From Ulota crispa (taxonomy: Eukaryota; Streptophyta; Bryopsida; Orthotrichales; Orthotrichaceae), in NCBI GenBank assembly GCA_963920765.1, contig OY987242.1:16020002-16084001 (forward strand): a stretch of 64,000 bases of DNA, read 5' to 3'. Below the pieces are notes generated by a model, which worked only from the letters and a program-made list of their open reading frames with translations, ran no database searches and had not been told where the DNA came from. Below are positions 5,621 through 62,123 of the stretch, in pieces (position 1 is the first letter of the stretch; each line of letters opens with the position of its first letter). A program made the translations under genes and the position numbers.

Positions 5621-6751
5621 TTAACCCTTGAAGGACCAATTGTCCCTCTGGGGATGGGTGGTACTTTGGGCATGTACCTTCAAATTATCTAGCTTAAGAT
5701 ACTATTTGCAACTTTTAATGAAGGTGGGGAATTGAGAGACCTATGTGGCCATCCAAATTTTTCTTTATTCCGACATTTAGTGAAGAAGTTATGAAACTAT
5801 TTTTGAAAAAAGGTGGAGATGGGGCAGCAAGGGCAAGAGCTTTCCTTTGTATTGGAGAGTTGGCTCTAAGGTTGGGCAACCATGAGGGGCAAGAGAAACA
5901 TTCATGGTGGGCAAATGGAATCATAGGTTGTGAGGGGCTTGGATTGAATCTAGTTTAAGAGCTTGACAACAGCAAAAGCGGGAAGGGAGGTACTATGGCT
6001 AGAATTGGAAAAAGTGATGCATGAAAACTCCAAAATGATTTGGGAGTTGCAATTTGAAGCAAGGGATTGGAGCATTGAGGTTAGTAGAGAGGGCCAATCA
6101 AGAAGGGGGTAGCTGGTGAAGAATGGGTTGGTTGGAGAGGGCCCATCCTCCTAGATCTTAACCCACCTTGCCCTTTGTTAAAAAAAATTAATTCAATTGT
6201 TTTGAGCAAATATTCCGTGGCTTTAATTTTTTGTTTTTTTAATGTAATAGTACACTAGTATTCTTAGATTTTCGCTGCTTCAATCTCTTTGATTCAAAAT
6301 ATTGAATTTCACATAAAGCATCCAACTTTGCCTAGTGTATTTGCAAATTTCATAACCTTTCGACATCCAAAGATTTTTTGAAGTATGTTATATACAGCCT
6401 TTTGATTTGAAAATTCTCCCACACATACCTAACTTAGCCTTCTATATGGATAAAATAAACTTCAACTTTGTGTAGAGCAATTTTTTTGCTATAAGAGTGG
6501 TCAAAGGCTTTTGAAATTTTTGGGCAGCAGGGAAATTTTTTTTTTTTCTTCACTTCAAATGTTGATATCTCACTTCTCACCATTTGAAATGAGCTAATTT
6601 TTTCCCCACATGTACCTCTCATAGTCCAGGGCAATTCCTGCGGTTGGATCCTCAAAAAAACCTTTTTTCCTACCTTTCTACTCATTCCTCCAAAATTGGC
6701 AGTTTTCAAAAATATTCATAGGAAAAAAAGGCTTGATCCTTTAGGGGTTAA
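5621..6751. mobile_element. TTAA-flanked element, copy A
   Basis: Flanked by TTAA at 5621 and 6748. Tips are CCCTTGAAGGACCAA and, in complement, CCCCTAAAGGATCAAG. The interior is homologous to copies C (inverted), J and the degenerate copy H. No transposase was recognised. Confidence 0.85.
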
Positions 6752-8252
6752 ACATACCACTCAGGCACCCACCCCATGATAGCATGATTAGGTTTTATAT
6801 TATTTAGTACTTATTAAATTTAATATGATATCTAAACAAATCTTACTGTAAATTAGTTGCACAAGTTACACTTGACACATTTAGAGCTAATAGTTGAAAT
6901 GGTCAAATTGGTTCTAAATTGTATGCTTCTTTGGCAATGCATAACTAGGTTTTTTTGAAATTATAGGATATTAGTTGTTCACATATAGAGTAGTAAAGCC
7001 TTAGAGAACTAAGCTTTGAATTTGTCGCTTTATTAGAATGATTGCAAATTGATAATCTAGTAGCATGGGAAGCTCATAAACTTGGAGTTTTGTAAGAAAG
7101 TATTGCTTAAAGAATTACAAACTTGTTTAGAATTGTAAAATTCATGTTTGAACTGTACAAAATTTTGGTTTCTTATGCAAAATACTAGATTATTGTTTAT
7201 GTATAATTTTGGTTTAGCAATAGCTTACTTGAAATAATCCTAAATTATTCAATTTTATTTCATTGTTACATTAATTTCTCTACTTTTTTTCCAAATCATG
7301 TTTATTTCTTTTTTAAAGTTCTTATTCACACTACAATTACTCAAACATGATTTTTAGTTATTTTCTAATAGATCATTTAACATATTAAGAATTTTAAAAA
7401 ATAATTGTGTAGTGGTCTAAGAATATTCAAGCTTGGACAATGCTCTTTTCTAAAGTACATTGTATAGAATTGTTAATTCATGATCGGTTGGAGCAATTTT
7501 CCTCATAATTCTTGCTAAAATTGCTTCTTGTAAAAGATTCTTTTGAATGAAAAATATTACTCAATCATTCTGACTACACTACAGTTTAAATCTTGAGATA
7601 TTGATAGTATAGATTGAAGTTGCCATGACAAAAATCTAGCAAAGTCCATCAACTTCAAAGAAGTGCAGGAAAGAAATTGCACCTTGAAGGACCACTAGAG
7701 CTTAGAATACATTTTGTATTTAATGGTTTTTGTTAGTCACATATAAAGAGCAAAATTAACACAAATACTTAAGGGGATTTTATTTTGCATGCCATATGGT
7801 CTTTTAATTTTTTGAATTGCAACTTAAGTTTTCAAATGCTATTAAAATGTTTATTGACATCAAGACTATTATCAGATTGAAAAATGAAACAAGGACATCT
7901 CAAAATGTCAAAAAGTTGGCATTTTGGACAAGAAAGTGACATTTTGAAACTAGGCATGAGTGCCCTCCATCTAATAGGAGGTTGCAAATCTCAATATAAT
8001 TAAACAGGTGTTTTTCGTTGCTTTTTTGGTTGGAGGAAATTTTGATTTCTCACAATTGGTTTCAAGGCTTGTTTTGTGATTTTCCTCCTTTCTCACACAA
8101 GGGGCCATGCTTCTTTGTTTTCTCAAGCAATAAAGCCTACGCTTACAAATTAACACACTTTGTTAGAGGCACAGGCACAAGAGTTTTTGATCTTCTTGTG
8201 GGAAAAAGTGAGCATGCATGAGAAATCAAACATTTTTATATAAAAAATGCCT
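6752..8252. other. Intergenic, no gene seen
   Basis: AT-rich sequence between TTAA elements. No recognisable coding region, RNA or tandem array. Confidence 0.5.
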
Positions 8253-8512
8253 TTAACCCTTCAGCGCCCCACAGCCCCAAATATTGCTTCTCACAATTGA
8301 AAAAATTTCATGTTTGAATGTTATAGTCTTTTCATCAATAAAGACAAATCAAGACAAATCATGTGTCCTTTTTTCTTGTACTTCTGGGCCTATGTCCCCT
8401 ACCAATCAATACGGCTGGATTTTATGGATCTTGTTTGTCATGACAAATTAGTTGGATTGAGTGTGACTAGGTCTGTATTTTGGTGAATATGGCCTGGGCG
8501 CTCAGGGGTTAA
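8253..8512. mobile_element. TTAA-flanked element, copy B
   Basis: TTAA at 8253 and 8509. Tips CCCTTCAGCGCCCC and, in complement, CCCCTGAGCGCCCAGG. About 252 bases. It shares its right TTAA with copy C. Confidence 0.85.
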
Positions 8513-9564
8513 TCCGTAAAGGACCAAGCCATTTTTTCTCTAAAAATCACTCAAAACTATCACTTTTGAGGGAATGAGTAGAAAGGTAAGAGTTTTTTTT
8601 AAAAGATTCTAACTGTAGGATCTTGCTCTAAACTATGGGAGGTACTTGTAGGACAAAAATCAGCTCATTTCAAATGCTGGAGAATGAGATATCAACATCT
8701 AAAGTGAATAAAAAAAAGTTTTTTCCATGCTGCCTAAAAATTTTAGAAGCCTTTGACCACTCTTAGAGCAAGAAAGTTACTCTACACAAAGTTGAGGTTT
8801 TTTTTCTCATGTAGGAAAACAAGTTAGGCATGTGCGGGAGAATTTTCAAATGAATTGGAAATGTGTATCATACTCCATAAAATTGTTGAATGCCAATAGG
8901 TCTTGTATCTTTTAAATACACTAGACAAGACTAGATTATTTATGAAAAAAACAGAAATATGAATCTCACTAATCCAAGTGGTGAAAACATAGGAATGATG
9001 ATATATTATCATATTTAAAATTAAAAAAACAAAAAAATGTTGTAAAACCTAGTTCAAACAAATAAAAACAAAACTTTTCAATGGGGCAAGTGGAAGGATG
9101 GGTTCTTGATCCCATTGGGACGGGCCCATTCCACCGCCCGCATGCCTCCCTTTTCACTAACCTCACCCCATTGCTTTCCACCCAGGCCCGCCCCTAACAA
9201 CCCACCGCGTTTCCTTCCTTTCCAGCAAATTTGGGATGTTAGGCTAGGGTCTAAAAAAAACCCTCTCCCAAATCTACCCGCCCCAAGTTTATCCTAGCCC
9301 TTTCTAGCTGCCCCTTGGTGGAGTCAACTACCCATACAAAGGGGAGGAGTTGCTCAAGCTAAATCTTCTCACTAGGCAGTAACAAATCTTACATAACTTC
9401 TTTGTAAAATGTCGAAATGAAGAAAAAATAAGATTCTCATGTAGATCTTGTAATTCCCCACCTTCAATAAAAATTTCAGAAAAACATGCAAAGCAATTTA
9501 CCCATAGATACATGCCCAAATCCCAAGCTGTCCCCCAAATGGACAATGGTTCTTTAGGGATTAA
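8509..9564. mobile_element. TTAA-flanked element, copy C
   Basis: TTAA at 8509 and 9561. Tips TCCGTAAAGGACCAAG and, in complement, TCCCTAAAGAACCATTG. The interior is homologous to copy A in reverse and to H in the same orientation. It also holds a GC-richer patch (about 9080-9310) absent from A. Confidence 0.85.
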
Positions 9565-10686: not shown

Positions 10687-10734
10687 AAATTTGCCAGGAT
10701 TTTAAAGGGTGGTGGTGAGGCCAAAACTATCTCA

Positions 10735-12623: not shown

Positions 12624-15600
12624 ATGGCCACCTGCAAGTCGTGGATGTCAAGTGTCCTGCTCGGGGACAGAACTCAACGCAATGGTTTGTCATCACGAGT
12701 TGCGCATTTCAGTCCACCGCGAGTTCCGTTCTCGAAGAGAATGACGATCATGGCTGCCGCTACGACGCCATTGAAGCTGGAAAAGGTGATCCTCACCAAG
12801 AGCCAAATCCACGAGGTGAAGACACAGCACTTTTCTTCTTCCTCCATAGCCATGGTTTCAAACCCTAATTGGTGGATGGTTTATTTGATTGATTTTGGAG
12901 TGTCGTTGGTGGAGTTGATTGATGGCAGGCGAGAGAGGCGATGGATGGGTTTGTGGAGAACATTCCGAACCACCCGGAGAAGCGGGACGGAGCATCGCCG
13001 TACTACCTGCTGCACGGCGATGGCGACTCCGTGTATGGGACAGTGTTGATGTTCCATGGATTCTCCGCCTCCACTTGGCAGATGAGCCTTCTTGCGCAGT
13101 ATCTGTATGACAATGGTTTTAACGTTTATCAACCTGGTCTCTGCGGCCATTGCTTAGTGAATCCCGACCAGAACTGGCCTAAGGTAGTAAGCTCTAGTAC
13201 TTCTGCATTCCCACCCTCATCCTCCTCTTCCTCTTCGCTTGCTCGCTTGCTCGTTTGCTTGCTGGCTCGCTTGCTGGCTTAATTGGCTTGATTGTTTGCT
13301 TGCTGGCTTGCTTGTTTGCTTGCTGGTTTGATTTGTTTGCTTGCTGGCTTGCTTGTTTGCTTGCTGGCTTGATTGTTTGCTTGCTGGTTTGATTTGTTTG
13401 CTTGCTGGCTTGATTGTTTGCTTGCTGGCTTGATTGTTTGCTTTGAACGTGAACTTGACGGCGTGTTTGATTTCGGTACACAGCACGACTTGAAGCGTGA
13501 GATTAAGGAGGAATTGACTGCAAAGCTTCTGAGCGATCCAGAGTTGGCTGCATATATTCAGGATTTCGTGTCAATCAGCACCTTGACTCCCGATCAGGTA
13601 GGCCTTGACAAATCTAGCTGCAAATCGGGTTTAGGGTTTACTAGACTGTTTTTTTGGAAGAGCGTTAGAGCATCTGCGCTGTCGCACGCAACCTGGAGCA
13701 CTCAAATGCAGGTGCATTCACTATCACTGGCTTGCTCAAATCTCCAATGCCCCACCCTTGCCCTCAAGCAGGTACAAGCAAGCACTAAGAGTAAGAGTGT
13801 ATCACAACGCATGGCAGCTGTTGAGCTTCAATCGTGGGTCTCTTGTGTTGAGCAATCAACAAATTTCAATTGTCCTAGATTTGGGTGCAGTAAGGATTCA
13901 TCAAACCCTGAATGTTCTAGTGTTCAAGCTACAATTCAGGTAGCCTTGTCTTGTACAGGGTGATGGCGTGAGGCGTGTCAAACATAGTGACCTCGCCAAG
14001 TGCTCTTGCAAGGTTGTTGAGCGTGTGTGGGTGCGGATGCTCTCAGAGAACAGATAGTGTTTAAAGGTTTATTATCAACTTCGGCGTAGCATGGTCCTTC
14101 TCTTTTTCCAAAATACTAACCTGCCCTTGATTGTTTTTTCGAAGCAATTCTGACATCCCCCTATACATAGTTTGCCCCCATTACTAAGAATCCTGTCTAA
14201 GGAATGTTTAGCTGGACCGACGCTTATCTGCAAAGAATCCAAGTGGTAGGCTGACATCCCTATTATTCCTTTTCAGGCGAGCGGAGCAGTGGCACGTTTG
14301 AAGTCACTGAATGAGCCGGAATTGCTTGAAGCACTCTTCGATGAGGAGTTTTCTGATTCTAAGTTTTACAAGTACTTTCCACCCCCCGCCCCTTTGCTCC
14401 TCAACCTTTGATTTTAGGTGCCAGCAGCATAATCTCATCTTAAGGTAGGAGCATTCATTACCAACATTGTGCCTGATGGTGTCACTCTTTACTCAGGGTA
14501 GTCATTCTAGAACTTAAATCTAGGTATGTCGTAGATAGCTTATTGGTGTTGACCAAGATGATAAACTATCTATGACGTACTTAGATTTAAGTTCTAAAAT
14601 GACTACCATGTATAGAGAGTGACGCCATTAAATACAACGTTAGTAATGGGTGCTCCTACCTTCCTAGCAATTGTGTGTATCGTGAATAGGTTTAGCATGA
14701 AACTAATGCCTACTATGCAAGGACTAGAGGTCACCGTTCAGCAACAAAACTTGCTCTAGATTTATACTGATTTAGGGTTGTCAGAGCTCTCGGTTTGTCA
14801 ACTCCTCTTTTCCGGCAACAGCCCAAACTCTTGTTTCCAAATTACTTGCCAAAAATTCCCTTCAGATCACTATTGTCATTTTATCAGCAAGTGTTTGTGG
14901 TTTCGTTTTTTTCCTCCAGATACTACGAATCGGAGCACATGAACTATCTGCATGAGGCGGAGGAGCGGATGAAAGAGGTGGAGGCTCTGCCTGGACCTGT
15001 CTTCACGGTGGGTATGTCAATGGGTGGTGCAACGGCACTCTCTCTCGCAGCTCGACACTCGGACAAAGTTGCCAAAACTGCAGTTTTTGCACCCCTCCTC
15101 AAGGTAGTCTCTCCGAACCACCCATTGGACTTGTTCACCTACTTTTGCAACTGTATTCACACACACTCCAAAAAATCAACAGGCGAAGGTATGTGCTACT
15201 TAATCCGTAAATGCCGCGGCGGACGGATGGATAACAAAAGAAAAAAACTTTGTACCATGGAAAAAGCTGTTTTTCATCTGTTTTTTAGAAGTGATCTAGA
15301 TTGTGAGAAGATTTAGAAACATGGTATTAGGTATTAAGTTCCATGTTGCTGCAACATACACTATTGATTTTGCAACTTTTGGAAACAATATTATAATGGG
15401 TGGGCACTTGCCACACCAATGTATTGCTACAATAAAGGTAGGGGCAACCACGGTTACTAGCCGGGTATTTAACCCTTTAACGACTGGTTGACCAGTTCTT
15501 GGTCGATTTTTATAATTTGTAGAGAGAGCATGTCAAGGAATTTGATGATGTGGCAAAGGGGATGGATCTGGGGAATTGGAAAGTGAAGAGTTTAGGACAA

Positions 15601-18600
15601 TAATCATGCCAATCTAAGGTGGCATGTGGCTAGAGGGTTGAAAAAACTAAAAGAGTACGAAAATACACCAATAAATGCAAAAAAATGGCCATAATAACTA
15701 AAGAGTGAGCATAATTCATGATGCATAACACTAAACGCTGCAAGATACTTCCATTTGTACGGTCAGATTTGTGATAGACATTTGTACTCAATAACCCTAA
15801 AATATCTCCCAAATGAAAATACAAAGGATTGCCCACCCCCAGAATCGACCACGGTCGTTAAAGGGTTAAGGAGAGGAGCCCATTTGTCTTGCTTGGAAGT
15901 GATAATGATCTAGGTTTTTGTCTAGACTTGAAGAGAACACAATTTTTGCTAAGTTTCCAGCTTGGGGGTCACCTGCGTGAATAGAAACCACATGAGAGCC
16001 ACTATAGAGTGGATTCTACCTTTTGAATTTAAAGAACAACAAACATTCTAGGGTGTCAAATAAATATTAGACGATTGATTTTTGTTCACGACAATAGATA
16101 ACTAGATACTTTAGAGTGGAATTAAATGTCAAAAAATAGATGTACATAATGAGTGGCATTGGTTGGTGGGGGTGTTGTGTTGTGTGTTTGTTGTGTTGTG
16201 TGTTTGTTGTGTTGGTGCAGATCATCAATCAGAGCAACTGCCGGTTTTCAAAGCTGGCGGGACCGCTGGGGGCGCAGGAGAAAGGGTGGTACCCGGACAT
16301 GCCGTTCCTGCTGAGCTGCATGGTAGCCGTGGATGTGTTCGGCCATTTTGTGCGGCAGGAGCAGCACGTGCAGGCGCTGGCCAAAGTGCCGACGCTGATC
16401 GTGCAGACGGAAATCGACGACTCCGCCGACCACTCTGTTGGCATGCGCTTCATCGCCGACCTCCAACACCGCGCCGGTACATATACATACATATATACAC
16501 ACTCTCCTCTCTCCCTCGCCCTCCTTATCTCCTTCTCAGAGGAGAGGACACTATATTTTGTGAGCGTAAAACGGTGAGCCATGGGCGGTGAGCCAAGATT
16601 TTATTCTATGAGAAGGAACCGATTGCAAGCTTGAAGTCAATGGAAAAAATATAAAAAAAACAGCAAGTTTTTGAAGAGATAGAAAGTTTAAAATGCACAC
16701 TTATAGGGTCTTATGGACACGTTTATAAATGAACTTGAGTTATTTTGACAAAAAAATTCAGGCCCATGACTCATAGCTCACAGATCCTTGCTCTTGTCCT
16801 ATAGGAAGAATGCTATTTTGTGAGTGTAAAATGGTGAGCCATGAGTAGTGAGCTAAGATTCTATTCTAGGAGTGCAAACCAATTCTAAGCTCAAAATTTA
16901 TTGACCAAAAAAAAAATCAAATTTTTGAAGAGACAGAAAGTTTAAAATGCACATTACAGGGCACATGTTTATAGGTGAAATTTAATACTTTGACAAAATA
17001 ATGTAGGCTCACATCTCATGGCTCACAGATCCTTGTTCACATTATAGCATTCCCCTCTCCCTCCCTTCAATTCTTTGTGCACTTGACTTTCCGTTTCATT
17101 AGAGTATCCGGCACACTTCCCATACACTCGCCTCATACTGTTGTTGCCTGATAGCACATTAGGGGTTTCAAACCTTGCGGAAAACAGAATTTTGTAGAAG
17201 CGTTTTCACATGAGTTGGGGGTTTCAAACCTAGGGGAAAGCAGAATTTTTTTCTACTTTTTGCTGCATGAGAAAATGCAAACAAAGTTTTCTCAGGCAAA
17301 ATGTTTTGCAATCAGAAAGTTTTTGCGTACCTAGTGAGGTGCAGAGAAGCGCAAGGATGCGCTACCTTGGGTGCGAAAATAAGGAAAACAACAAGGAACC
17401 AGCCTCTAAATTATTGTGAGAAGTGAAGATGTTTTTCTCTTGCAAAAAGGGTTAATGGGGAAACCAGGTTTAGTTGGGAAATACACCAAGCTTTGAAACC
17501 CCTTTTTTGTTCCACATTTGAACTAGAGGTCTAGCTAAAAAGATCCACTCCTCACTTAGACACTTTCTATATAGTTGAATCCTTAGCCAAATTCAAAAGA
17601 AAGTACGTATTTTGAAAGCAAGAAAGGAAATAAAAGGTTGCTAAAACTGGAGTTATAAACTATTGTTGCACCATGCTTGCAGCCCCTGCTAAGCGCGCAA
17701 TAGTTTAGGCTTTGGAATGCTCTTTAGAACCTAGAAGTGGTTCAATTCAAACAAGCATCTTGCAGATTGAAAATAGATCAATGATAGATTGGTGATTGAG
17801 TGGTGGTGAACTTCTAAATGACTTCAAGAGCAGTCTCACCGTGCTTTAAATAGGTTTTGCATAAACATTTACTACCGTTTCCCTTTATTCAATAAACCTC
17901 AAAATCTAATACCTTTTTGTGTCCCTTTCTCAGCTAGCTTGCACAATGTGTAGTTAGTTTAAATTTGATGAGGAATTGAGCGTGGGAATGGTATTGATTG
18001 AGGAGTAGTATTTTTGGGCTAGGTCTCATAGTTGCCCGACCCTCATGCTTTATGACAGTTTTGTGCTTTTTTTTAAGATTTTCAATGGAAATACCTATTA
18101 CCGCCTGTGATCTCAAAATTTCTTTTTCGTGTTTGGAAAAAATGCAGGTGAAGATGGCCCCCTACATTTTTCCACATTATATGCTGCAGCTGAAGCTGTG
18201 CCTCATCCCATGGTGCACCCACTGGAGGTAAAAACATGCAAAAAAAGAGAAGAGATTACACTAAAATTCACCAGGCAGTATTTATTGAAGCTTTGTAGCA
18301 TTGTGTGACAATCAATTCGTGGTGCGTGTAAAAATAAGATTTTAGTAAGAGTATCTGGAGTTCTAGATGGTTTTACAACCCTTTTTTCACACTTCGTAAA
18401 CTCTCGTTTTTATCCCCATTTTTGTTTGTAACATTTTTGTGGCATACTGAGTACATAGTGAATTTTCATGTGGGCTCATTGGGTTTTGATGAAAGAATAG
18501 AGGTTTGAACGTTAGAGAAGGTAATACTAAATAGGTGTATGTATAATTTGACATTATAACATTAGACAACTAAGCTTAATTTAATGCTTTACCAAAATAC

Positions 18601-19231: not shown

Positions 19232-20062
19232 GCAAGTTTCATTACATCATTTTTTCTAGTGTTGGGAAGGTCTTGTCACTTCAAGAGTAAAAAAAGAGCA
19301 ACAAGAACGGAAGAGCAATTGAGCCCAATAATAGGAGTTGCAAAATTGAAGTCAATAGTACAAGTTGATTGAAGTAGTTGCAAAACTGATGTCATGTTGT
19401 GTCCTTGTATTCTAGGTAACATTATTTTTTACATTTTTACCTTGGGGACACATTTGTGGTGTTACATATAGCGTTACAACGAGTTAATATGATGATATTG
19501 TTGCATGATGATATCATTTTGAATTTGTGTTTCTTTTCACAAGATTCATTCCTAAACTCTTACTGTAAGGTACTTAGCAGGTTGCTATTGTGTGAATTTG
19601 AGCTTTAGGGTAGCTCACACTAGGTCATTTTGTTACGCATTAGTGTTAAACTTGTTGCCCAATTGTCATTGATTTGAAAGGAAAGTCTTTTTAGGTATAG
19701 CTTTGGAACGTCTTGGATTGTTGTAATATTTACTAGGTTCTGAAGCCAGCAATGAAACATATGTTTAGTCCAAATTTCACAAGAACTTGAAAAATACATC
19801 GCACTCTTAGGGCTTGTGTAAAAAATAATAACTTGAAAGTTCAATTTCTGTTTTGTTAGAATTAAGAATTTTCCAATGATATGAAAAACACCTCCAAGGA
19901 TGTCTAAATTTACCTCTTAGTTAAATTTTAAATTCAAATACAACAACCTTAGTTAGCAATGACAAAAAGAATAAACAAATAAGCAAGTCTTAATTTTAGT
20001 TTTAACTAAGCTAATAGTATCTTCAAATGTTGAGTCAAAAATTATATTTTTAGTGTTACTAA
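19232..20062. other. Downstream of the hydrolase gene
   Basis: 3' flank of the hydrolase gene. No other gene or repeat recognised. Confidence 0.45.
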
Positions 20063-20339
20063 ACCTTAAATGTCGGGCTGAAAACCGTGGCTTATCTTGC
20101 CCTGTAGCACTACAATGCCATGACAAGTGCCCATCTTATAGTATTGTTTTTAAAAGTTGCAAAAGTCAACAATGCATAATGACCTCATGAAACTTTAAAT
20201 TATCCATTATGATCATTTCCTATTGATGTTGTCCAAAAACAATAGAAACAATCAAACTTTAATAAAAAAAAACTATATTGTGGTGCCAATCAATTAGTAC
20301 AAGGAGTGGCATTATTCATTTGACATTTGGGATTTTTAA
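20063..20339. mobile_element. TTAA-type element, copy M
   Basis: The left flank is CTAA (20059) in place of TTAA and the left tip is ACCTTAAATGTCGGGC. The right end abuts TTAA 20336, which also starts copy F. The interior is homologous to inverted D and to L. Confidence 0.65.
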
Positions 20340-21296
20340 CCCCTAAATGCTTGAGGTACCACATTTTGGTGTTGAAAATACTTTGAAGTTCAATAAAATT
20401 AACTAGATTGCTATTTTTGATTATTTATATTTTTGAACTACTCTTTTTAGAGTCTAGTTTTAGCATCAAAAATCTAGTTTTGAAATTGATTGATTATGAC
20501 TTTCTTATTCAAAATTTTCTGCAAGGGTCTTGACTTTCTGTAATGTTGAGAGCTCTTGGAAATGAGCCTCAAATACACTAGATCTTGGAGAAAAAAATTC
20601 ACTAGAAATTCATTTTAAAAATTTGTAGAAGAGATTTTGAAAATCCGTAAAGTGATTGGAGTTAAGGTAGGAACACCCATAAGCGTCAGTGTCCCCATAA
20701 CCGTCACCTTTGAAATCTTGGAAAATCTGTGGAAGTGAATAGATGTAATGACAAGGATGTACAACATGTGAACATGAAATCTTAAAATGGTTATGCGTGC
20801 AATGGCAGTTAGCTTTTTAAAAATTCACAACTTATTCTCACAATATCCAAATAATACATTTGAAAGTGCAAACTCATTTTTTTTCTGTTCCTAACAAGAT
20901 CCTATAGTTTGCTAATTGTTTATTAATAGCCATCATGTTCAAATCCTTAGTTTGACATTTATGGGTGCTCCTACCTTATAGTATGTATGTTATGTCCTTT
21001 AACCTTGTATTTTTTTGGTAACCAATTTTTTAGATTCAACATGTGAAAAGAGGATTGAAAGACTTCAAGTCATTTTTGCAAGTTTAACACCCTTATGATC
21101 AAACATTAGAATCTTTCAATCCATAAGTGATATTGTTGTATTTTCTTTTCCTATGTGATCTCTAACATGTATAGTTTAAATTTGTATGGTTATGGTTTAA
21201 TAAATTTTGATATAGCTAACTAAAATGTTGGCTTCTTGTTCAATTTAGAGCAAATTCCTAGAAGTTCAAAAAAGGCCTCAAGCATTTAGGGGTTAA
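20336..21296. mobile_element. TTAA-flanked element, copy F, with nested MITE
   Basis: TTAA at 20336 and 21293. Perfect 17-bp tips CCCCTAAATGCTTGAGG on both ends. It is interrupted by an AAGGTAG-family MITE at 20664-20977. Confidence 0.92.
20664..20977. mobile_element. MITE, AAGGTAG family, copy 3 (nested)
   Basis: Tips AAGGTAGGAACACCCATAAG and, in complement, AAGGTAGGAGCACCCATAAA. It lies inside TTAA element F, so it inserted later. Confidence 0.85.
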
Positions 21297-34203: not shown

Positions 34204-34223
34204 ACGTCCGCCTCCACGCCTTC

Positions 34224-35060: not shown

Positions 35061-35637
35061 GTGAGTTCCGCCTTCAATACTCGGATTCCCTACCAGATCT
35101 GTAACCTTTTTCTTTCTTTTTGGTGTCGATGGTGTGGAACGGTGTGTCCGAGTGTCGTCCAGAGTGGTAGGAAGCGTTGACGGTCATGAGGAGGCGGTGA
35201 ATTGGAGTGAATGTGAACAAGTAGGACCTGAATGAAGGGATGATTTGATGTGGAAGTAGTAGGAATCCATGGGTGAGCTGTTTTGCGAGGTTTGCATCAG
35301 TCGAAATGGCACTCGTTTTGGCGGATGGCGTGGTAGTGGATCGTGAAGGTTTTTCCCGAAGTAGGAATTTTGTGGATGCCGCATGAACAAAGTTGCGGAT
35401 CATTGATGTCGGAGTGATTAGGGTTTCGATTTCTGGAGCCTGGACAAGCTTTGAATCTGAAGTGTTGCAGAGAAATCCTTGAGTGTGGTCGAACCTCTGC
35501 CGCGCAGGTTTGAGAATTTGGTAAAAGCTTGGGTAATGGGTATAGTCGAGTGCAGCTGTGGGAGTGCATCCATGCTGGTATTGCAGTTTCTCAAGTCTTT
35601 AGGAAGACGGCATCGGCCATATTTTTTTCAGGGGAAA

Positions 35638-37581: not shown

Positions 37582-37954
37582 TTAACCCTCAAATAACAAA
37601 GCAAACAAAAAACATCTGCTACTTATTGAAAAATAAAATTGTAGAATGGAGAAAAACCAGTTTTTATTTGACATTTTTTAGAAGTGATTATGGAAACACA
37701 CTCTATCATAGAAGGCAAAAAATACCCTCATTGTATGTACACATTTTTTTAGGGAGCCTAAATTGTGAGAAGATCCAGAGACACATTGTTAGGTCCCATG
37801 CTACATGCCTTGCAATTTGAGGTTAACATGCATTGTTGACTTTTGTTATTTTTGGAAACAACACTGAGTGAGTAATTTGCTACACCACTATAGAGCACTA
37901 TAAAGCAACTCTAAAGGGGCAATCATGGTGACCAACGTGACGTTTAGGGGTTAA
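37582..37954. mobile_element. TTAA-flanked element, copy G
   Basis: TTAA at 37582 and 37951. Right tip, in complement, CCCCTAAACGTCACG; left tip CCCTCAAATAAC. The interior is homologous to copy D (for example TTTTTTAGAAGTGAT and TTTTTGGAAACAA). Confidence 0.8.
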
Positions 37955-40760: not shown

Positions 40761-41127
40761 TAGACTTTTTCTCAATAAAAGTGCGGGTTATTTCAACTTG
40801 GCAATATACATGGATTGGGGACTTTGGATTTTGCAAAGTGATATTTAAAAAAGCAAAAAGGAAAAGGAAAAAAGGATTAAGACTTAAGACCTGTCACTGC
40901 ACTGCAAGACTAATGGTGACCAGTTTTTATGGGAGAGAAAAGGAATGGGAACTTAACAAAAGACACATGGGACGGCTACTGGGGCCATGCTCATTGCCCA
41001 CCAGGCCAGCATCAGGCGTTCAGACAGACCCTTTCTCCATGTCCCCATCCCTGCCTCTTGTGCTTTCAATGCCATGGCCTCCTTTCCACACTACCCATCC
41101 CTTTCATTTCTTCCCACTTGCACCTCC

Positions 41128-41699
41128 GGGCGGTTCTACCCATTCCCTAAACATTCCGGGTGGTTCTACTCATGTCCCCAACGTTCCCTGTGATTCTAGT
41201 CATGCTCCCAATGTTCAAGGTGGTTTTTCTCACTGTCCCCAACGTTCCTGGTAGTTTTACTCATGTTCCCAATGTTCCGGGGTGGTTCTACTCATGTTCT
41301 CAATGTTTCAAGTGGTTCTAGCTATTTTTGCAACGTCTTGTGTGATTCTAACAATGCCCCCAGCTTTCTAGGTAGTTCTTGCCATGCCCCTAGCATCTTG
41401 GGTGGTTCTTGCTATATATGCAATGTCATGGGTTAGTTTTGTCTATGGCCTCAATATCCCAGGTGGGAATAGGCATGCCATTAGTCTCCCAGGTGGGTCC
41501 AAGTATGCCTTTGTGTCCCATGTGGTTTTTAGTATGCCCCTCTAATTTGGGTGGTTCTAGCTATGCTCCCAACTTCCCAAGTGGTTCTAGCTATGCCTTC
41601 AACATTCTAGGTGGTTCTAGCTATGCCCCCAACATTATGGGTGGTTCTAGTTATGCCCTCCAATGTCGCAAGTGGTTCTAGCTATGCTTAAAACCTTTA
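41128..41699. repeat. 30-bp minisatellite, about 19 units
   Basis: Units like GGTGGTTCTAGCTATGCCCC plus about ten more bases, with 1-2 base length drift. In runs without drift the plus strand reads as ten-residue repeats such as GGSTHVPNVP and GGSSYAPNIM. Frame shifts and stops break it into pieces, so it is not a working gene as it stands. Confidence 0.9.
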
Positions 41700-47400: not shown

Positions 47401-47401
47401 C

Positions 47402-47659
47402 AACGCCATATTTGTTAAATTAGGAAAAAGAGTACATTTTGGGACTTTTGAAGGATTAAGGTGACCACCTTAATTTGAGCTCTAGTGTTTTTTTTGGTAC
47501 ACGTGCCCTCACTTGAAAGGAGGAATTTGCAAGGGAAAAAACCTTAGTGGTTCAAACTAAATTTGATACCTCTGAATCTGGGTTTAAGGTGACTATTTTG
47601 GATTAAGGTGAGGTACAAAATGGTACCCATCGTTTTCTCATTTTAATGAATATGGCGTT
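47402..47659. mobile_element. MITE, AACGCCATATT family, copy 2
   Basis: Tips AACGCCATATTTGTTAAATT and, in complement, AACGCCATATTCATTAAAAT. Same family as 3759-4013 and 48563-48843, in reverse orientation. Confidence 0.88.
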
Positions 47660-48179
47660 ATATTTCAGTGTAGCTCGACACTTGAATGTGTAAAAACTTT
47701 AGATTTAGCAGTGTGATTTGTTTGCGTAGCGGTTGAATGTAAGAAAATCCAAAAATCATTTGTGATCTGCCTCAGTCTGACTATTCACGTGTTGATAGTT
47801 TCATGGAGTGCAAGAAGTGGAACCTTTTGATACCGAAGCGACGGTGAGGACTGTACTGTACATAGCTCGGGGAAAGGAGAGAGCTTAATTATATGGTACT
47901 GGCCTGGGACTCTGGGAGTGCAGGAGTACAGTACCGGTGTTGCGGTACTGGGAGGAACACAGCGAGCTGCTTCCACCTTTCAAATATCTCGCAGTCTCGG
48001 CCTGGTGGCACGGCCACTGCTGTGCAGAGCAGCCTGCTCAGCCCTGCTCAAGTCCTGTCGGGGTTTCCATTGGTTTGTTGCTCTTCGAGACTGGAAATTG
48101 GAGGCTGTGGGAGGGTACAGTAGCAGTGTGGGCATCAAACTAGTGTCCTTGCAGAATTTATGAGCAATCACAGAGATTG
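47660..48179. other. GC-richer unique stretch, no gene assigned
   Basis: About 47800-48160 is clearly more GC-rich than its surroundings and open in several frames, but no frame shows recognisable protein content and no splice pattern stands out. Confidence 0.35.
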
Positions 48180-48990
48180 GAGATGTCATATTACATGAGC
48201 AATCATTATACTAAAATCACATGGTGTTTTGTAAAATCATATCTTGACCTTTGTAATACCACGTCTCCAATTTATGATGCCATACTACTAAAATCACTGT
48301 GCCTTTTGTAATATCACATTTTTAGTCTTTGTAATATTAATCATATTATCATACTACAGAACCACAATGACCTTTGTAATATCACATTTCCAATCATTTT
48401 GATGTTACCACTTAGAGTTAGATACGATTTGAAGACTTACTAAAAGTTTTACTTTGCATTCTATTTAACATATGAAAATCCTAATAAAATTTTAATGATG
48501 TATGCGTAACAAAGCAAGTGCCAAACCATCAACAGCTAGTCATACTACTAAAATCACAAGGTAATGCCATATTCATTAAATTGGGAAAGCCTGATTTTCA
48601 AGTTGTACTTCACCTGGCTTAAACCCATTGTTTCTCTTTAAACCGTTTAAACGCCAGATTCAAAAGTATCAAATTCAGTCTGAGCCACTAAGATTTTGTC
48701 CCTTGCAAATTCCTCCTTTCAAGTGAGGGCACGTGTACCAAAAAAAATGCTGCTGAAACCTAGAGCTTGGTTTAACGTGATTACCTTAAACCTAGTTTAT
48801 TCCCAAAATGGACGTTTCTTCCAAAATTAACAAATAAGGCGTTAGGCGCTTTGTAATATCACAACTTGACCTCTATGATATCACATCTCTAATCTGTGTG
48901 ATACTCCAATATTATCATATAAATACAATTTAAGGATTTACTTGAAATTTTCACTTTACATTTTATTTAAGACACAAAATCCTAATAAAT
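48180..48990. repeat. Degenerate tandem repeat, interrupted by a MITE
   Basis: Repeated phrases CATACTACTAAAATCAC and TTTGTAATATCACATTT occur from 48180 to 48560 and resume at 48846 after the MITE at 48563-48843. Confidence 0.7.
48563..48843. mobile_element. MITE, AACGCCATATT family, copy 3
   Basis: Tips AATGCCATATTCATTAAATT and, in complement, AACGCCTTATTTGTTAATTT. It splits the tandem repeat phrase, and TA on both sides may be the target duplication. Confidence 0.85.
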
Positions 48991-52001: not shown

Positions 52002-52305
52002 CCGACTTTCTAACAACGAGCTAATTAATTAGCTAAATAAAGATCTAAACACGAATTTTGATGTAAATGGACTCTACCTGTCTACCATGAAAACTGGCCG
52101 CTATACCATGAGAACTAAATTATCCCAAGAAAAAATGAACTATTCCATGAAAAATAGAATCTGATAATTTTGATTACAAAAAAAATTGAGTCCACATTCT
52201 GTAAGTGTTGTAGTCTTCTAAAGTTGTAGTACATCTTCCTCATGCATAACGTAAAGAAATGTTAAAGTTTAACACATTGTTACAAAAGAGTTGTCCATTT
52301 TTTTT

Positions 52306-53235
52306 CACGCCTCAAGGCCCAAGCCCTTTTTTCTGTGAAAGTCACTCAAAACTGCCACGTTTGGAGGAATGAGTAGAATTTTAAGAAAAGAAGTTTTTTT
52401 GGAAATCCAATCGTAAGAGCTTGCCCTAGACTATGGGAGGTACTTGTGGGAAGAAAATCAGCTCATTCTAGATGTAGAGGAGTGAGATATTGACATCCAA
52501 AGTGAAACAAAAAGTTTTTTCCCTGTCTACCCAAAAAATTTAGAAGCCTTTAACAGCTCCTATATCAAAATTGCTCTACTCAAAGTTGCAGTTTATTTTT
52601 TTCATGTAGAATACCAAGTTAGGTACCTGTGAGAGAATTTTCAAATGAAGTGGAGGTGTGAATCATACTTTGTAAAATTCCGCAATGCCGTAAGGCCATG
52701 AAATTTACATATACACTAGACAAAATTGGAGGATTTATGTAAAATTGAGAAATCTGAATTACTTTGATCCAAATGGTAAAAACCAAGGAATCTTGGTTTT
52801 CTACGGCTTGGGAAAAAGGTCAAAAAACAAATACACAAAGAGCTCAAAGAAAGTAAAGCACCAAATTTTACAAGGGGCAAAGGATTGGAGGTTTGGGAGT
52901 CCCACACCAAACAAAACTTCTCACAACTTTCATCTCATCAATCAAAATTGAATGATTCAAAGCTTCCTACATATACATAAATCTAAAGAACCAATTTCAG
53001 TTTTTTATTTTTTTTAAACAAAATGTTTAAAAAAGTTTTTGGGCTACCCACCTTCCCCTGTTTTTTAAAAATTCATGCATAACTTCTTCAATAAATGTTG
53101 GAATGAAGAAAAAATTAAATGCCCATATAGATTTTTGAATTCCACATCTTCAATAAAAGTTTCAGAAAATCACACAAAATAGTTTAGCTGTAAATACATG
53201 CCCAAAACTCCACTCGGCCCCTGAGGGGCCACTTG
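52306..53235. mobile_element. Degenerate TTAA-type element, copy H
   Basis: The interior closely follows copy C (for example CTATGGGAGGTACTTGT and AATGAGTAGAA). The left tip is degraded (CCTCAAGGCCCAAGCCC), and the flanking TTAAs are lost. Confidence 0.65.
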
Positions 53236-56200
53236 GGCCATACGCTTTTCCCAAATATCGAATAACACGTTTAGTGTGTTGAAGATTTTTGCTAATAGGC
53301 TAAATAGCTGATTTAATGGATGAATATGTATATATGATGAACATGCTTTCATCCAAATTTTCCTTACCTCCATACATTCTGGGTGTATGTCACTTTACCA
53401 TTCAAAAATACCCAAATTCCCAAAACAAAAGAACAAAAGAACAAGAGAACAAAAAAAAATAAGATAAATCAAAATCCTTACTTATGAATTCTTTCATGAA
53501 ACACCCCGTAATTTTGAAACAAGCAATGCTCTCTTCTCCCCCAACCCTTGGTAATGTTTTTTTTCCTAGTTTTTTCATACTTGTCATTGGTTTAATACTT
53601 CAAACTCCAAATTATTTGGCTTTCTTTTCTTCTTTTTTCTAATAAAATTAGTTGGAGCTGGACTTGTTATTTTCAAATTAAAAAGTCAACATTGGTTTTA
53701 TCCTTTAATGTCAAGAAACTGTTGCTTTTAAAATTGGAGGTTCTATTGCATCCTTGTCAAGAATTCCAGACAGCATCGCAACGCTCCAACGTAAAAAAGG
53801 ATGTGATCCTCGCAAACTCATCCAAGATTGAGTCAAAATTGATAACAAAAGGTTTGCACGAGAGAAAAAATAACAATAATAAGGTTCAAATCGTGTGTTT
53901 GAGCAAAGTTCATTACTGTTGGCTTAGCCCATAGCCTCAAATGCACTCCAAACCTTGGATAAACAAACAAGAAAGCATTCAGTTGCACACAAAGGATAAC
54001 AAAAAAGTTTTCCACTAAATTATAAGTTTTATTTGCCTATTTTGTTTTCTTCTTTTGTTGTTGTTTTTTTAAGTACAACTTTCAAAATGACAAGGCCAAA
54101 CAAAACAAAATAAAGCAGTTCTGATGTGAAATCTCGAGTGTGAAATTTAAGATGGGCTATGTGAATGTCACTACCAGATCTCATGGTTGGATACCCCACT
54201 CATCTGATTTGTGCTACTTGGCTATACTGAGATTTGTGTACCCTCAAATGAAAACAGAATTAAATTCTCCTCGAACTACAATGAAGCAAGGGTTTCCAAC
54301 TATGACTTTCTTGACCCAAATAGAAAACTAAAAACCTGAAAGAAAACGGAGAGCAAAAGAATGAGAGGTGGGTCTTTGTCTCATAACACATGGGCCGGCT
54401 ACTTCTAACGGGTCCCATCACATAACTACATTTCTGTAGATTTCTCTGTGGACCTCTCCTCCCTGTCTACATGACCAGTCCCTTTCCATGACACTCCCAC
54501 TTGCTCCCACTTGCTATTCACTTCCTATTTAGCTTGTTCCGTGCAAATGTAGCAAAACCTAAAATCATAAGTTGGAAAACGATGCTTGGGAACCAAGCTA
54601 TAGGTGGTTCCCATGGTGCAAGTGGGTACTACAAGCTTGATGCCGAAAGGGGCATGTGGACAATTTAGCTTAAACCCCACGTACCCTACTTTCACTAATA
54701 TGTCATATTTCACTACTTGTGGATTATTTAAAGTTTATAAATAATTCTTCACAAAATAATTTGGTTTACAAACATTGGAAGATACTTGTTGAACTTTGAG
54801 AGGTTTTTGCAAAACTTTGGGAAATACTTGCAAAACATTGTGCTATATTTCTAAAATGTTGGGAGATGTATTCAGATTATAAGGTGCATGCAAAACATGG
54901 GGAGAATTCTATAAGCTTTGTGACACAGAAATTTTGTAACTACTTGAATAGTCCATAAGAAGTTAAAGATGTTATTAGTAAATCTTGTACTGTGAATCTC
55001 ACAACTTATGTTCTAAGAGTATGGAGGAATATTGTAGAATGGGGCTTATACAACACATGTTTCATAATTGGAACAACTTCTAGTTGCTCTCTTCCAGACG
55101 ATAGAGATGTATCCTATCCACTAAAATGTGGATATTTCCTTGTATAGGAGATTAATTGGTTTGAGGTGCAAGAATGACATGGGTCAAACTTGGATGATAC
55201 CATATTATTGATATAAACTCTTCAAGAATTGTCTCTTCTCATACAACTTTATGAGACACTTGATGGGTGGGTAGTTGAGGTAATCTTAACATTTAGAGAT
55301 ATGAACACAATATTCATTAATCTAGGAAAAAACCCAATTTTTGGGACTTTTGAATTTTGTTTTCTTGAGAGAGTATTCACTAAATACTCTACTAAGGATG
55401 TAAAAACCCAAAAATCCCAAAATTAAGTTTTTTCCAAACTAATGAATAAAAAACAATAATGGCTCTTTGAGGAATAATTGATTAATGAAAATCAATGAGA
55501 TGGTGTCTCTTGTCATTGTTTGGTTGTTATCAATATATACAAAATGCTTGACGGCTTCTTTTTCTTTGAGGTAGATCAATTTACTAGCTTGTTTTTTTTT
55601 TGTTTCTAACAAATGCGATTGGAATTTCTTGACTCGGGATTTGTGACCAAACCTCTTTCTTTAAAACTATAATGATTGTTCCAGACTGCAAACTTAGCAG
55701 TTTTTGCTTTATAAAAAAATTCCTTGGTTTTCTTATTAGTTGAGAAAACTGGAAACTTTGTGAATTAATAAACTCACTTTAGACCTATTTTATATAGATT
55801 GGAGATAGGAAGTATGCTGAGTATAATAATATATGTATTTTGAATTCAAAAAATGGACTCCAAAAACGTTTTGCACAAGCTGTTCTTCAAAATTTATCCA
55901 TGGTTTCTTTATATATCTAAGATATGACAGTTATAGACTCATTGCCACCAGTTTAACTCTAAAGTCCTCAATCTTCAAGATGCAAATTTATATATAGTAT
56001 TTTCAATTCAAACTTATAAGTTCAAAATTTACTAATTAACCCATACCGACTCAATTAGTCTAAGTTGCTGTTCAAAATTCATTATTGTACAATGTTCACT
56101 CCAAATCAAAAGATAAGCCATGGCTTTTAAGACTTTTGAAATAATCTACACAATGTAAAAAATCAATGATGCAATGTGCATACAAAATTTAAGCATCTTT

Positions 56201-56396: not shown

Positions 56397-57333
56397 TTAA
56401 CCCCTCAAGTTCTAAGCTAAATTTTCACCAAAACCGCTCTATAATTGCCATTTTTAGTATAAGTTCCAAATTTTAGAAAAAAAAACATTTTTTTGACAAA
56501 TGTAGCCATAAGATCTTCTACTACACTAGTATCAAAAGATGTCAAAAAATTTCAGAAATTTTCAAAATGTAGATTGTAAGATATTTGAGTTTGAATTGAC
56601 AAAAAGTCATTTTTTTGTCTATGCAAAAATCTAGGCAGCTACATTTGATGAGGTCATATACTCATATTTGTATAATTGTTTTTGAAAATGGTTGTAATTC
56701 TTAAGATTTTTTCTTCAAAGCAAGTTGGATACACACTTGAAAATTTTCAAATCATTTGGAATTGTGCAACACATGGAAAAAAAATAGTAAGTAAAAAGGA
56801 GTAGAGAATAATTCAAACCACTAAATTGTTAAGGACTTAATTATGGAAATGAAAAATTCTAATTTCAATGGTTGTAATGTTGTAATAAAAATTCTAAATC
56901 CTCAAGTTTTATTTTTTTCTAAAATATTGAGGATTGAGTAAAATAAAGGACTTCAAAGTTTATTTTAGAGTACAAAATCCATAACTACCCGCAAACAAAA
57001 TCTCCTCATAACTTTCATCCCAATACCCAGAATTGAATTATTTATTGTTTCCCATGTACATATAAATCTAAAGAACCAATTTATAAAAAAATAAAGTTTA
57101 AACTGTAATTTTTAAAGAAATATTATGTTTGCCCAACAAGCAAAGAAAACAACATATCATGCAATAACTTTTGAATTATGAAGTCAAAAGTTATGAAAAT
57201 TGTTGGGCCTTAAAGCTACTCCTTGAATACATCATGTGTGAAATTTTAAAAAAAAAATGAAGAACCCATTGGTAGTGAGCTACCCAAAATCGCTATATTG
57301 CCAGAAAAGGGTGTTTAGGACTTTAGGGGTTAA
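56397..57333. mobile_element. TTAA-flanked element, copy I
   Basis: TTAA at 56397 and 57330. Tips CCCCTCAAGTTCTAAGC and, in complement, CCCCTAAAGTCCTAAAC. Confidence 0.85.
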
Positions 57334-57557: not shown

Positions 57558-58479
57558 TTAACCCCTAAAGGACCAAAGTCCCCTCAAGGGACAAATGGGA
57601 TTTTGGGCATGTACCTATGGCTAATATACTTTTTATGATTTTCTGAAACTTTTATTGAAGATGGGGATTTTAAAGATCTACGTGGGCATCTAATTTTTTC
57701 TTCATTCCAAATTTGATGAAGAAGTTATGCATGAATTTATGAAAAATGGTGTTTGAGGGGCAGCCAAAAACTTCTTAAAAAATTTCATTTGTTTCAAATA
57801 AAAATCTGAAATAGGTTCTTTAGACTTATATAGAGGTGGGAGCTTTGAATTGTTCAATTTTGATAGATGAGATGAAAGTTATGATGAGTTTTTGTTTGCG
57901 GACAGTTCTAGATTCTCTACTCTAAAATAAACTTTGAAGTCTTTTATTTTACTCAATTTTCAATATTTAAAAAAAAAACCAAATGATGTAGATTGTTTAT
58001 CACAACATTTTAACTGTTGGAATTTGCATTTTTCATTTTAATAATTAAATTCTTAATAATTTAGTGTTTTGACTCATTCTCTACTTCTTTGTACTTACTA
58101 TTTTTTCCCATGTGTTGTATAATTCCAATTGATTTGAAAATTCTCCCACACATACCTAAACTTGGTCTCCTACATGGGAAAAATAAACCTCAACTTTGCG
58201 TAGAGTAATTTTTTGCTCTAAGAGTGGTCAAAGCCTTCTGAAATTTTTGGGCAACAGCAAAAAAAAACTCATTTCCGCAATTCAAATGTAAATATCTCAC
58301 TCATTTTTGTGTAGATTGAGCTGAATTGTTTACCACGTGTACCTCTTGTAGTCTAATGTAAGATCTTATGGTTGAATTCTTGTAAAAAACTTTTTTTCTT
58401 ACCACTGTACTTGCTTCCCCAAAACTGGCAGTTTTCTGTATTTTTCATAGAAAAAATGGCTTGGTCCTTTAGGGGTTAA
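57558..58479. mobile_element. TTAA-flanked element, copy J
   Basis: TTAA at 57558 and 58476. Perfect 15-bp tips CCCCTAAAGGACCAA. The interior is homologous to copy A in the same orientation. Confidence 0.92.
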
Positions 58480-59192: not shown

Positions 59193-59423
59193 AAGGTAGG
59201 AGGCTCAAATTCTGACCATGTTCTAATTGCATTTCTTACCTAAGAAAGAATGATATATTTTGTGAAATATTTGTTATTGTTATTGATGAATTAGATAGGC
59301 TTAAATGATCAATAAGTCTACCTAACTCATCAATAACAATAATAGATATTTGAAGGAATATGTCATTCATTCCTAAAAAAAGAACGCAATTAGAACATGA
59401 TCAAAATTTGAGCCTCCTACCTT
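59193..59423. mobile_element. MITE, AAGGTAG family, copy 5
   Basis: A hairpin with tips AAGGTAGGAGGCTCAAATTC and, in complement, AAGGTAGGAGGCTCAAATTT, followed in both arms by ATGTTCTAATTGC. Confidence 0.9.
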
Positions 59424-60322
59424 AGTGTTCATCTTCCTAAAGTTTCCATCAATGCTTAGGTAAAATTGACCATGGCTGCAGTGTTAGCCAATGAAATACA
59501 AAAAATCCAATTGAGGTTTTAAAGTATAGGAAAAAAAAATCCAAAAAAAGATACCTAACCCTAGTATAAGCATAGTAAATATTTGGTATAGGCTTGTAAA
59601 AATTGTTGGAAATGAGAAATGGAGCCAGTAAGTGAAAAAATACAAAAATAACAACCTTTTCTATACAATGAAAATGTTGGGTGTCTTTTTTTACCAATTA
59701 TTATGCGTCTTTGCTTTTTCAATGTGACTTAAACAAACAAGAGTAGGAATTTAGTTTTAGTTTGGAAAATTTTTGATTGATCTGTTTAATCTAAATATGC
59801 ACATTGAAGAAAGTGACATCACTAGACTATTCTACCTTATAGTGGTTTGAATGTGGTCCTTTTTCTTTCTAATCCCTAAATGCTTGAGGCACCAAGTTTT
59901 GGTGTTCAGGAAACTTTGAGATCTTGCTAAAGGTAAAGATTCAAATGTTTATTTTAAAAAAACTTGAGAATTTATGGTCTTAAGTTAGTCTTAATGTTCA
60001 ATTTGAATATTTGGCATATTACATTCTAATTTTTTGGTGAAAGCTAAACCATAGGCATGCGTGTTGCGCACTAAAAAGTGTGTTGAAAATTTTAAGCAAA
60101 GAACCTATGACAAGCTGCCACATTGGAAAAATAGGCATCAAGTTGAAAATAAAGTCAAGATCTACTCTTCCGCAGTGAGGGCCCTTGTGATTGAATATTC
60201 ATCCTCTAATAAAATCAACTTTTTTGTGCATTGATTTCACTTGGAATGTCTCTCTTATTGGAATTAGAATTCATCCACCATTGAATCCTCTTTATTCATA
60301 ATGATTTTTGGCCAATAACTAT

Positions 60323-61057
60323 AGGGTAGTTGCAAGAATGACCTGCCAGTTTTGTCTCAAACACCCTTGGTACTATGTAGTACTTTGAAGTACTATGAGT
60401 TTTTGAAATAATTTTTTTTAAATAAAATAAAATATAGAAAATTTGTAAAGCACTTAAAATAGCATATTTGTGAAAATTCAAACCTAGAAAATTTTTATTC
60501 TAAAAATTATGCACAAAACAAAATCACCAACAAAAAGCCAATTACTTTCTTGCTTTTTAGAAAATAGTAAAATAACTCAATAAAATAAAATAAAATAATG
60601 GCCATTTGAGAAGCCATCAAACACATTCACATGGTACAATTGCTTTGCTGAGGAATTTCTTTGCATTTTGCCAATGAAGGGAGATAGGATGCCCACTTTG
60701 AGACAATGGAGATGCCATGGAATTTATAATTTTGCAAAATCCTTCTACAAATGCATGTAAGAATGCTCCATAAATGACATCCTTGATTTATAGCCCTAGA
60801 AAAGCTTTTTTGGACCCAAAATAGTACTAAAAACCCCCCAAAATGGCCAAGATAGACACTTATCTAGGGGCTGCTTTAAAATAGCAAAATAACTTAAAAA
60901 AACACCAAAAAATCATGGAATGTCAGTAACTTGCATGTTCAAGTTACTCTAAAAGGACAAGTCAATATGACTTCTTTTGCAAAAGTTACAAGCAAAAAAT
61001 AAGCCGCAAAAGGTGACGGGGACAAAATGTAGTACATGTCATTCTTGCAATCACCCT
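60323..61057. mobile_element. Nested element with AGGGTRRTTGCAAGAATGAC ends
   Basis: Left tip AGGGTAGTTGCAAGAATGAC and right tip, in complement, AGGGTGATTGCAAGAATGAC. About 735 bases. The superfamily is not determined. Confidence 0.78.
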
Positions 61058-61392
61058 ATAACAAAAAAAAATCTTTGTGTTAGATATTAGCTTTTTGGCT
61101 ATTGCATTATTGTCTCACTCATAAAACTATAATCATGGATTTGGAAGGGAATTCATTAATTTTGAAATAACAACAACAAATACTAAATCATCATAAGTGT
61201 TTGTTTCCCATTTTTGTACACAAAAGTTACCATTTTGGCTCATCATGTTTTGAGCAGCTCCAAAAAATTGGCAAATTTTCCACATTAAGTCAAAAATATT
61301 GTAACATCCGCATGACTTTTTTGAATTTTTTTGGCAACACCTCCAAAAATCTTGAAATTCAAGATCCTATGATTACAATTTGGTTTTGGTGT

Positions 61393-61768
61393 TTAATCCT
61401 TAAGCGTTGGGTGGGTCACTGTGGCCTGCCTTGACTTTAACTTCTACAATATTTTTGCAGTTGGGTATCAATAATATTGCCTCAAAAAGTTGCAAAAGTC
61501 AACAGTACATGCTGAATCCATGAAAATTGCAATAAGGGTAGCTTGGGACCCAATAGAGTGATTCTGTTTTTTCTCACAACTTGGAATACCTAAAATTATG
61601 GGTGTAATTGATGATTTTTTTTTTTTTTTTTGCCTTCCATGATGCACTAAGCATTTATGATCACTTCTAGAAAAAAAATTAGATCAAAATCAGTTTTTTT
61701 TCTAGGATACAGAGTCCTTCTTTGGAGCCAAAAGACGTTTTTTGTCTGTGCCGACATTTAGGGGTTAA
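61393..61768. mobile_element. TTAA-flanked element, copy L (nested)
   Basis: TTAA at 61393 and 61765. Tips TCCTTAAGCGTTGGG and, in complement, CCCCTAAATGTCGGC. The interior is related to copies D and M (AAAAGTTGCAAAAGTCAACA). Confidence 0.8.
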
Positions 61769-62123
61769 CAATGATCATACAAGGATAGTTCAAAAACTTT
61801 AAAACGTCTTCTAAAATCAAGAAAAACACCCTTGAGCATTTAAGGATTAAGTTTGTTATCAAGCAGTGCAAAGAGTAAATGATATCACATATTTTGGTAG
61901 AACTACCCATCATGTAAAATGGACTATAACAAACAAAGTTCAAAAAATGTGCCTAATTTGTAGAGTTTGTATCAAACAAATTTTCCCACTACAAAAATGT
62001 GCTTACAATTGTGTTAATGTTTGGATAATTGACACATTCATGTGTCTTTCCATTTATTTATATTATTGGTTTGAAGCAATGAAGCTAGTTTTATATATTT
62101 GTATTTATATACACATATATATA

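Follow-up and report, generated by a model that had tools for sequence, protein, structure and literature searches.

What kind of mobile element is repeated, between TTAA sites and with CCC or TCC at its tips, along a 64,000-base stretch of chromosome 1 in Ulota crispa, a moss of the Orthotrichales (Bryopsida)? The whole stretch, here called the window, corresponds to C1:16020002-16084001 of a genome of 274.8 Mb in 157 contigs; the available part of the published genome note describes assembly cbUloCris4.1 as 275.00 Mb in 408 scaffolds (PMC11803377). The initial annotation of this DNA had described a plant-type sequence, which was borne out by the moss host, and had assigned its elements, lettered A to M without coordinates, to the piggyBac superfamily. 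Element positions were assigned in the present analysis and are consistent with the subfamily groups proposed there. We conclude, with a probability of about 0.97, that the window elements are non-autonomous piggyBac-superfamily cut-and-paste transposons of the miniature inverted-repeat transposable element (MITE) type, probably mobilised in trans by several distinct transposase lineages encoded elsewhere in the genome. The assignment is supported by TTAA duplication, CCC/GGG tips, paralogous empty sites, decayed piggyBac-type transposase genes and terminal sequence shared between the window elements and transposase-bearing elements.

Copies of the window elements were sought across the genome, and since each search scored the 40 best candidates, copy counts are lower bounds. 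For element E, the best 40 of 722 candidates were scored (self included); 37 spanned both ends, and those other than E itself were 88-92% identical to it. The 40 best were drawn from 556 candidates for B, with the others at 87-91% identity, and from 9,688 for J, with the main matches at 90-93%, self again included in both. Matches of G other than itself reached 66-84% identity. The E tip pattern, with at most one mismatch, occurred 34 times, and its reversed control did not occur. TTAA was present at 100 of 104 copy ends when families E, B and J were pooled. In the E sample, which comprised the first 26 of the 40 scored copies with the window copy included, TTAA was found at 25/26 five-prime and 25/26 three-prime ends (50/52) and at both ends of 24 of the 26; the five-prime end of L076, where the match begins at an internal TTAA, was not counted as TTAA-bordered. 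The word stood at 31/32 ends of 16 chosen B copies and at 19/20 ends of 10 J copies, figures that are upper estimates since these two samples favoured complete copies. The flanks of the E copies were unrelated, with a mean identity of 27-28% across 30 bases.

The short terminal inverted repeats starting with CCC that are expected of piggyBac were found in the window elements and in two transposase-bearing elements, L031 and L029; they were weak in G and L, whose tips pair over about 7-11 bases only. Within the window, piggyBac-like tips abut across a shared TTAA at B/C (8509-8512), D/E (15469-15472) and M/F (20336-20339). Such abutment is expected if transposons of this kind may insert at any TTAA, even at one beside an element already present. 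Further abutting piggyBac-like elements with one common TTAA were seen by eye at L067, L074, L076, L106 and L107.

Sites as they would be without an insertion were sought by comparing joined flanks with fetched DNA in 16 tests, of which those for B, C and B+C overlap. Empty sites spanning the junction were found in 5 of the 16 tests. Element L, which is inserted in K, is missing from L031, where a single TTAA stands in its place, and also from L062, where the site reads TTGG. For the E copies at L060, L061 and L063, the empty site was TTAA in L035, TTAT in L055 and TTCA elsewhere within L063, respectively. As in piggyBac, TTAA is duplicated on insertion; the empty sites hold a single TTAA or a near variant of it. 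The initial annotation had named empty sites with a duplication other than TTAA as evidence that would speak against its reading; those recovered showed TTAA in at least one relative for three insertions (L and the copies at L060 and L005) and the near variants TTAT and TTCA for one each.

A search of the genome with the profile of DDE_Tnp_1_7 (PF13843) returned at least 120 matches, all above the cut-off (116 scored of 528 candidates). None of 14 control genomes gave a PF13843 match, a result that says little. Eight of nine open frames matched DDE_Tnp_1_7 and nothing else, and the ninth, upstream in L031, matched nothing. Three transposases were searched among solved structures, and all three matched only piggyBac of Trichoplusia ni (6x67, 6x68) and piggyBat (9c0f). 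The DE, DN and GVDxxDQ-type motifs aligned to those of the solved proteins, with no single alignment spanning all of them in every protein. The four catalytic aspartate columns were kept in 19, 14, 18 and 17 of 21 aligned transposase copies; individual copies lack one or more of these residues, and L033 has asparagine at the third position. A cysteine-rich C-terminal pattern was recognised at 11/20 loci and at 0/20 in the antisense control, and no Pfam model matched this tail. The DDE_Tnp_1_7 domain with DDD residues and the cysteine-rich C-terminal domain are both features of piggyBac transposases. Pairwise amino-acid identity among the 21 aligned copies had a median of 35% (range 27-81%), and their tree has at least six deep branches, the order of which is poorly supported in places.

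Two side observations concern the transposase frames. At L032:2914-4080 (C2:34594948-34595949) lies a stop-free transposase frame of 389 amino acids, with the aspartate motifs and the cysteine tail and without TTAA-CCC tips inside about 3 kb; it is possibly a truncated copy or a domesticated gene. A long ACAT-type microsatellite, at L030:4473-5093, directly follows a transposase frame.

The initial annotation had proposed a search for longer members carrying a DDE_Tnp_1_7-type transposase, and such members were found for two sets of window elements: L031 for K, and L051, L052 and L030 for the A/C/H/J group. Eight transposase loci (L029-L034, L051 and L052) were read over 7.1-7.5 kb. The L031 element measures 5,746 bp, with TTAA on both sides, CCCCTAAATGCC tips and 15/16 tip bases inverted; that of L029 measures 5,027 bp, with 12/16 inverted tip bases. 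When 20 transposase loci had earlier been read with flanks of 1.5 kb, no ends were recovered, probably because the elements are longer. When K was compared with L031, allowing for a foreign repeat of 734 bp and for L, both nested in K, four collinear blocks of 69-85% identity were recovered, both ends included. In L051 and L052, the last ~600 bp, on the 3' side of the transposase, match C at 69-73%, and shorter parts match A, H and J at 73-76%. The first 626 bp of C match L051 at 73%, the right ~450 bp of A match one end of L051, ~360 bp of A match L052, and the last ~57 bp of L030 match A, C, H and J at 78-85%. A transposase thus lies between ends shared with non-autonomous copies, the sharing covering both ends for K and L031 and the transposase 3' end only for the A/C/H/J group. 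The transposases of the L051, L052 and L030 loci (L025, L026 and L011 in the alignment) form one branch of the tree, that of L031 (L012) belongs to another and that of L033 to a third. Another transposase superfamily in related elements would have been contrary evidence in the eyes of the initial annotation; those examined were of the piggyBac type only.

Several results weigh against the assignment of these elements to piggyBac MITEs. A convincing end pair was present in only L031 and L029 of the eight transposase loci; L030 has a weak pair (10/16 tip bases), one end only was seen at L033, L034, L051 and L052, and none at L032. E is tied to the L033 transposase by the tip alone (14/16 bases, by eye). 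The analysis recovered no autonomous element that is intact throughout. No spanning match was obtained in 11/16 joined-flank tests, and the empty sites that were found are all paralogous, none orthologous. Among the 11 spanning relatives of the site occupied by an I-type copy at L005, window element A has TTAA, eight have ATAA, one GTAA and one ACAG.

A different account would be that chance TTAA pairs happen to lie beside C-rich neighbours and that no mobile elements are involved. When [CT]CC after or GG[AG] before a word was counted, a word with both being scored twice, such neighbours were commoner at TTAA than chance would give: 36 at 407 TTAA words, against 69 at 2,142 occurrences of the other five words of two T and two A. 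Tip similarity alone is weak evidence. Of 7,586 TTAA pairs, 20 agreed in at least 11 of 16 tip bases, and 9 of these pairs have [CT]CC at the left start; twelve control words, with unequal pair numbers, gave 0 to 37 pairs at this level, such that tip similarity in the window was not above every control word. What is decisive is the genome-wide repetition with TTAA borders. Families E, B and J each have about 40 scored copies, mostly TTAA-bordered, the flanks of E are unrelated and empty sites are present; because of these copies and empty sites, the chance account is refuted, and we give it practically no weight. TTAA duplication is also the mark of Kolobok, another superfamily, which has a THAP-containing transposase, and the duplication seen in the copies would suit it too. 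The elements that share ends with the window copies, however, encode DDE_Tnp_1_7 proteins nearest piggyBac and piggyBat, and the links of K to L031 and of A and C to L051 and L052 contradict a Kolobok origin, which we consider extremely improbable. A search of the genome for the THAP domain gave no match, nor did it in any control genome.

For the piggyBac-type elements favoured here, the target choice, the end type and the enzyme type are those of piggyBac. By analogy with piggyBac biochemistry, cutting, joining and mobilisation in trans most likely follow the same course. Each transposase lineage would recognise the CCC-tipped ends that its MITEs share, and would excise its own and deleted copies at TTAA; the excised copies would be rejoined at new TTAA sites, and once inserted they may be silenced by CG and CHG methylation and decay.

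The pattern of decay was assessed by comparing copies with the commonest base at each position. Among E copies, C-to-T changes numbered 105/465 at CG, 170/736 at CHG and 164/3,192 at CHH sites, with 37/2,431 T-to-C and 21/3,555 A-to-G changes for comparison. Among B copies, the C-to-T changes were 12/101, 50/288 and 61/1,307 at the same three contexts, and the comparison changes 23/1,392 (T-to-C) and 13/950 (A-to-G). CpG stood at 0.23 of its expected frequency within the elements, compared with 0.50 across the window. Stops within the 120 transposase matches comprised 157 TGA, 252 TAG and 61 TAA. The C-to-T changes, which in E and B copies are concentrated at CG and CHG sites, the CpG ratios and the stops are as expected from CG and CHG methylation, and this pattern suggests that the copies were silenced by cytosine methylation in these two contexts and then decayed.

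The perfect tips of F and J had earlier been taken as a sign of recent activity. The ends of F are indeed identical over 21 bases and those of J over 19, TTAA included in both; J has scored copies of up to 93% identity, and 10 of the 120 transposase matches are stop-free. Against this, among the best 40 candidates for each element, the best full-length relatives were 81% identical for F, 91% for B, 92% for E and 93% for J. E copies differ from one another by a median of 9.4% (5.6-14.6%), and B copies by 9.1%. The perfect tips of F do not denote youth, because its best full-length relative is only 81% identical. Recent activity of these families was therefore not supported by their tips, and we regard it as unlikely.

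The elements are distributed along the window as follows. Element A (5621..6751, 1131 bp; tips CCCTTGAAGGACC / CCCCTAAAGGATC) and element C (8509..9564, 1056 bp; TCC tips), both of the A/C/H/J group, have TTAA on each side, as does B (8253..8512, 260 bp), a member of a high-copy family whose right TTAA is common with C. Element D (15200..15472; D/G/L/M group), with TTAA on each side, a decayed right tip and a short similarity to M, adjoins E at a common TTAA; E itself (15469..15869, 401 bp; tips CCCTTTAACGAC) has TTAA on each side and belongs to a high-copy family. M (D/G/L/M group), at about 20062..20339 with an approximate left border, is degenerate and adjoins F (20336..21296, 961 bp) at their common TTAA. 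G (37582..37954, 373 bp; D/G/L/M group) represents an old family and has TTAA on each side. H, a degenerate member of the A/C/H/J group with approximate borders (52302..53236), has no intact end and has lost both TTAA. Element I (56397..57333, 937 bp), with TTAA on each side, has a relative of 81% identity nested in another element at L005, and J (57558..58479, 922 bp; A/C/H/J group), also with TTAA on each side, belongs to a high-copy family. K (59869..61850, minus strand) is an internally deleted relative of the transposase-bearing L031; it holds L (61393..61768; D/G/L/M group), nested at TTAA, and the 734-bp foreign repeat (60324..61057), which also lies beside the L031 element.

The initial annotation had counted ten elements flanked on each side by TTAA, which is right (they are A-G, I, J and L), and one altered TTAA in each of K and M, which also agrees with what was found: the left TTAA of K reads CTAA, and that of M has been lost in degenerate sequence. 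CCC or TCC at both tips together with TTAA on both sides characterises nine elements (A, B, C, E, F, G, I, J and L). Its statement that the family dominates the window was too strong, because the elements cover 9,497 of 64,000 bases (14.8%), or 8,446 (13.2%) without the two nested foreign repeats.

Other repeats lie within or near the elements. Nested in F is a high-copy, TA-flanked repeat of ~317 bp (20663..20978), which is not piggyBac; it has AGGTAGG...CCTACCT ends, and its best other copies match it at 92-94% identity. The composite of F and this repeat recurs at L054 (C8:8070324-8071290), 81% identical and with unrelated flanks, so that the two seem to have been transposed together. The window also contains an inverted duplication of ~800 bp (32722-33487 / 34700-35487; 89% identical), a degenerate tandem repeat with a ~30-bp unit over 600 bp (41118-41727), and short tandem arrays at 13214-13455 and 30349-30460 (GCTTGCTG-rich; 14-bp unit). 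At 47402-48844, two repeats of ~260-280 bp with 73% similarity lie in inverted orientation; the pair also occurs near the transposase locus L029 and is perhaps an element of another kind with long terminal inverted repeats. Scanning the window against Rfam returned no match. Two land-plant markers encoded in the genome agree with the moss host: a SAM_LFY domain, and a chlorophyll a/b protein for which 8htu, from the moss Physcomitrium, is the best solved structure matched in a single stretch.

The Ulota elements share with piggyBac the TTAA target and CCC tips, and with piggyBac and piggyBat a DDE_Tnp_1_7-type protein with aligned catalytic aspartate motifs; they differ from both in their moss host, their decayed copies and their large MITE families. 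Insect piggyBac MITEs are short TTAA-flanked piggyBac derivatives, and those described here are likewise. Intact piggyBac elements of beetles measure 2,074-3,465 bp, with CCCT as the commonest tip (PMC12732532), whereas the two best-bounded Ulota elements, at 5,746 and 5,027 bp, are longer and may include nested insertions. The beetle paper also speaks of 'occasional occurrences' of piggyBac in plants. A review lists piggyBac among plant DNA-transposon superfamilies (PMC10794571), it is named as a MITE superfamily in angiosperms (PMC10004981), the fern Ceratopteris has a trace-level PiggyBac annotation (PMC6890710), and Stipa has one 75-bp match (PMC8319324). The Ulota elements resemble those of angiosperms and Ceratopteris in being land-plant elements assigned to piggyBac, but differ from them in that a single genome, that of Ulota, shows transposase genes together with shared ends and with empty sites (PMC10004981, PMC6890710).

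For mosses, the titles and beginnings of abstracts listed in a search, with most subscription papers and all repeat databases outside its scope, contained no description of a native piggyBac. A Physcomitrella paper that mentions piggyBac (PMC5505980) appears, judging by its title, to employ it as a tool. Among public moss proteins, some carry names derived from piggyBac. The main texts of the Sphagnum and Climacium genome papers do not contain 'piggybac', the sole passage for the term in the available part of the Niphotrichum paper is 'piggybacking', and the available part of the Ulota crispa genome note contains no word starting with 'transpos' (PMC11803377). Within the literature searched, it is fair to say that land-plant descriptions of such elements are scarce, yet they have been named before in a review, in angiosperms and in Ceratopteris. 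The Ulota case is notable for its host and its abundance: it is unusually rich, and piggyBac in plants was known before at a low level.

With at least six transposase lineages side by side in one genome, several probably with their own MITE families, it is conceivable, though we would favour it less than its opposite, that mosses have kept a diverse and long-resident piggyBac fauna. If so, piggyBac would have been ordinary in early land-plant genomes, or horizontal transfer would have brought it into mosses more than once, and most other plants would have lost it. The TTAA insertion sites may serve as markers, and the elements may offer a plant-derived source of piggyBac ends. The Ulota elements also raise the question of how far piggyBac is spread in bryophytes and why it is scarce in flowering plants.

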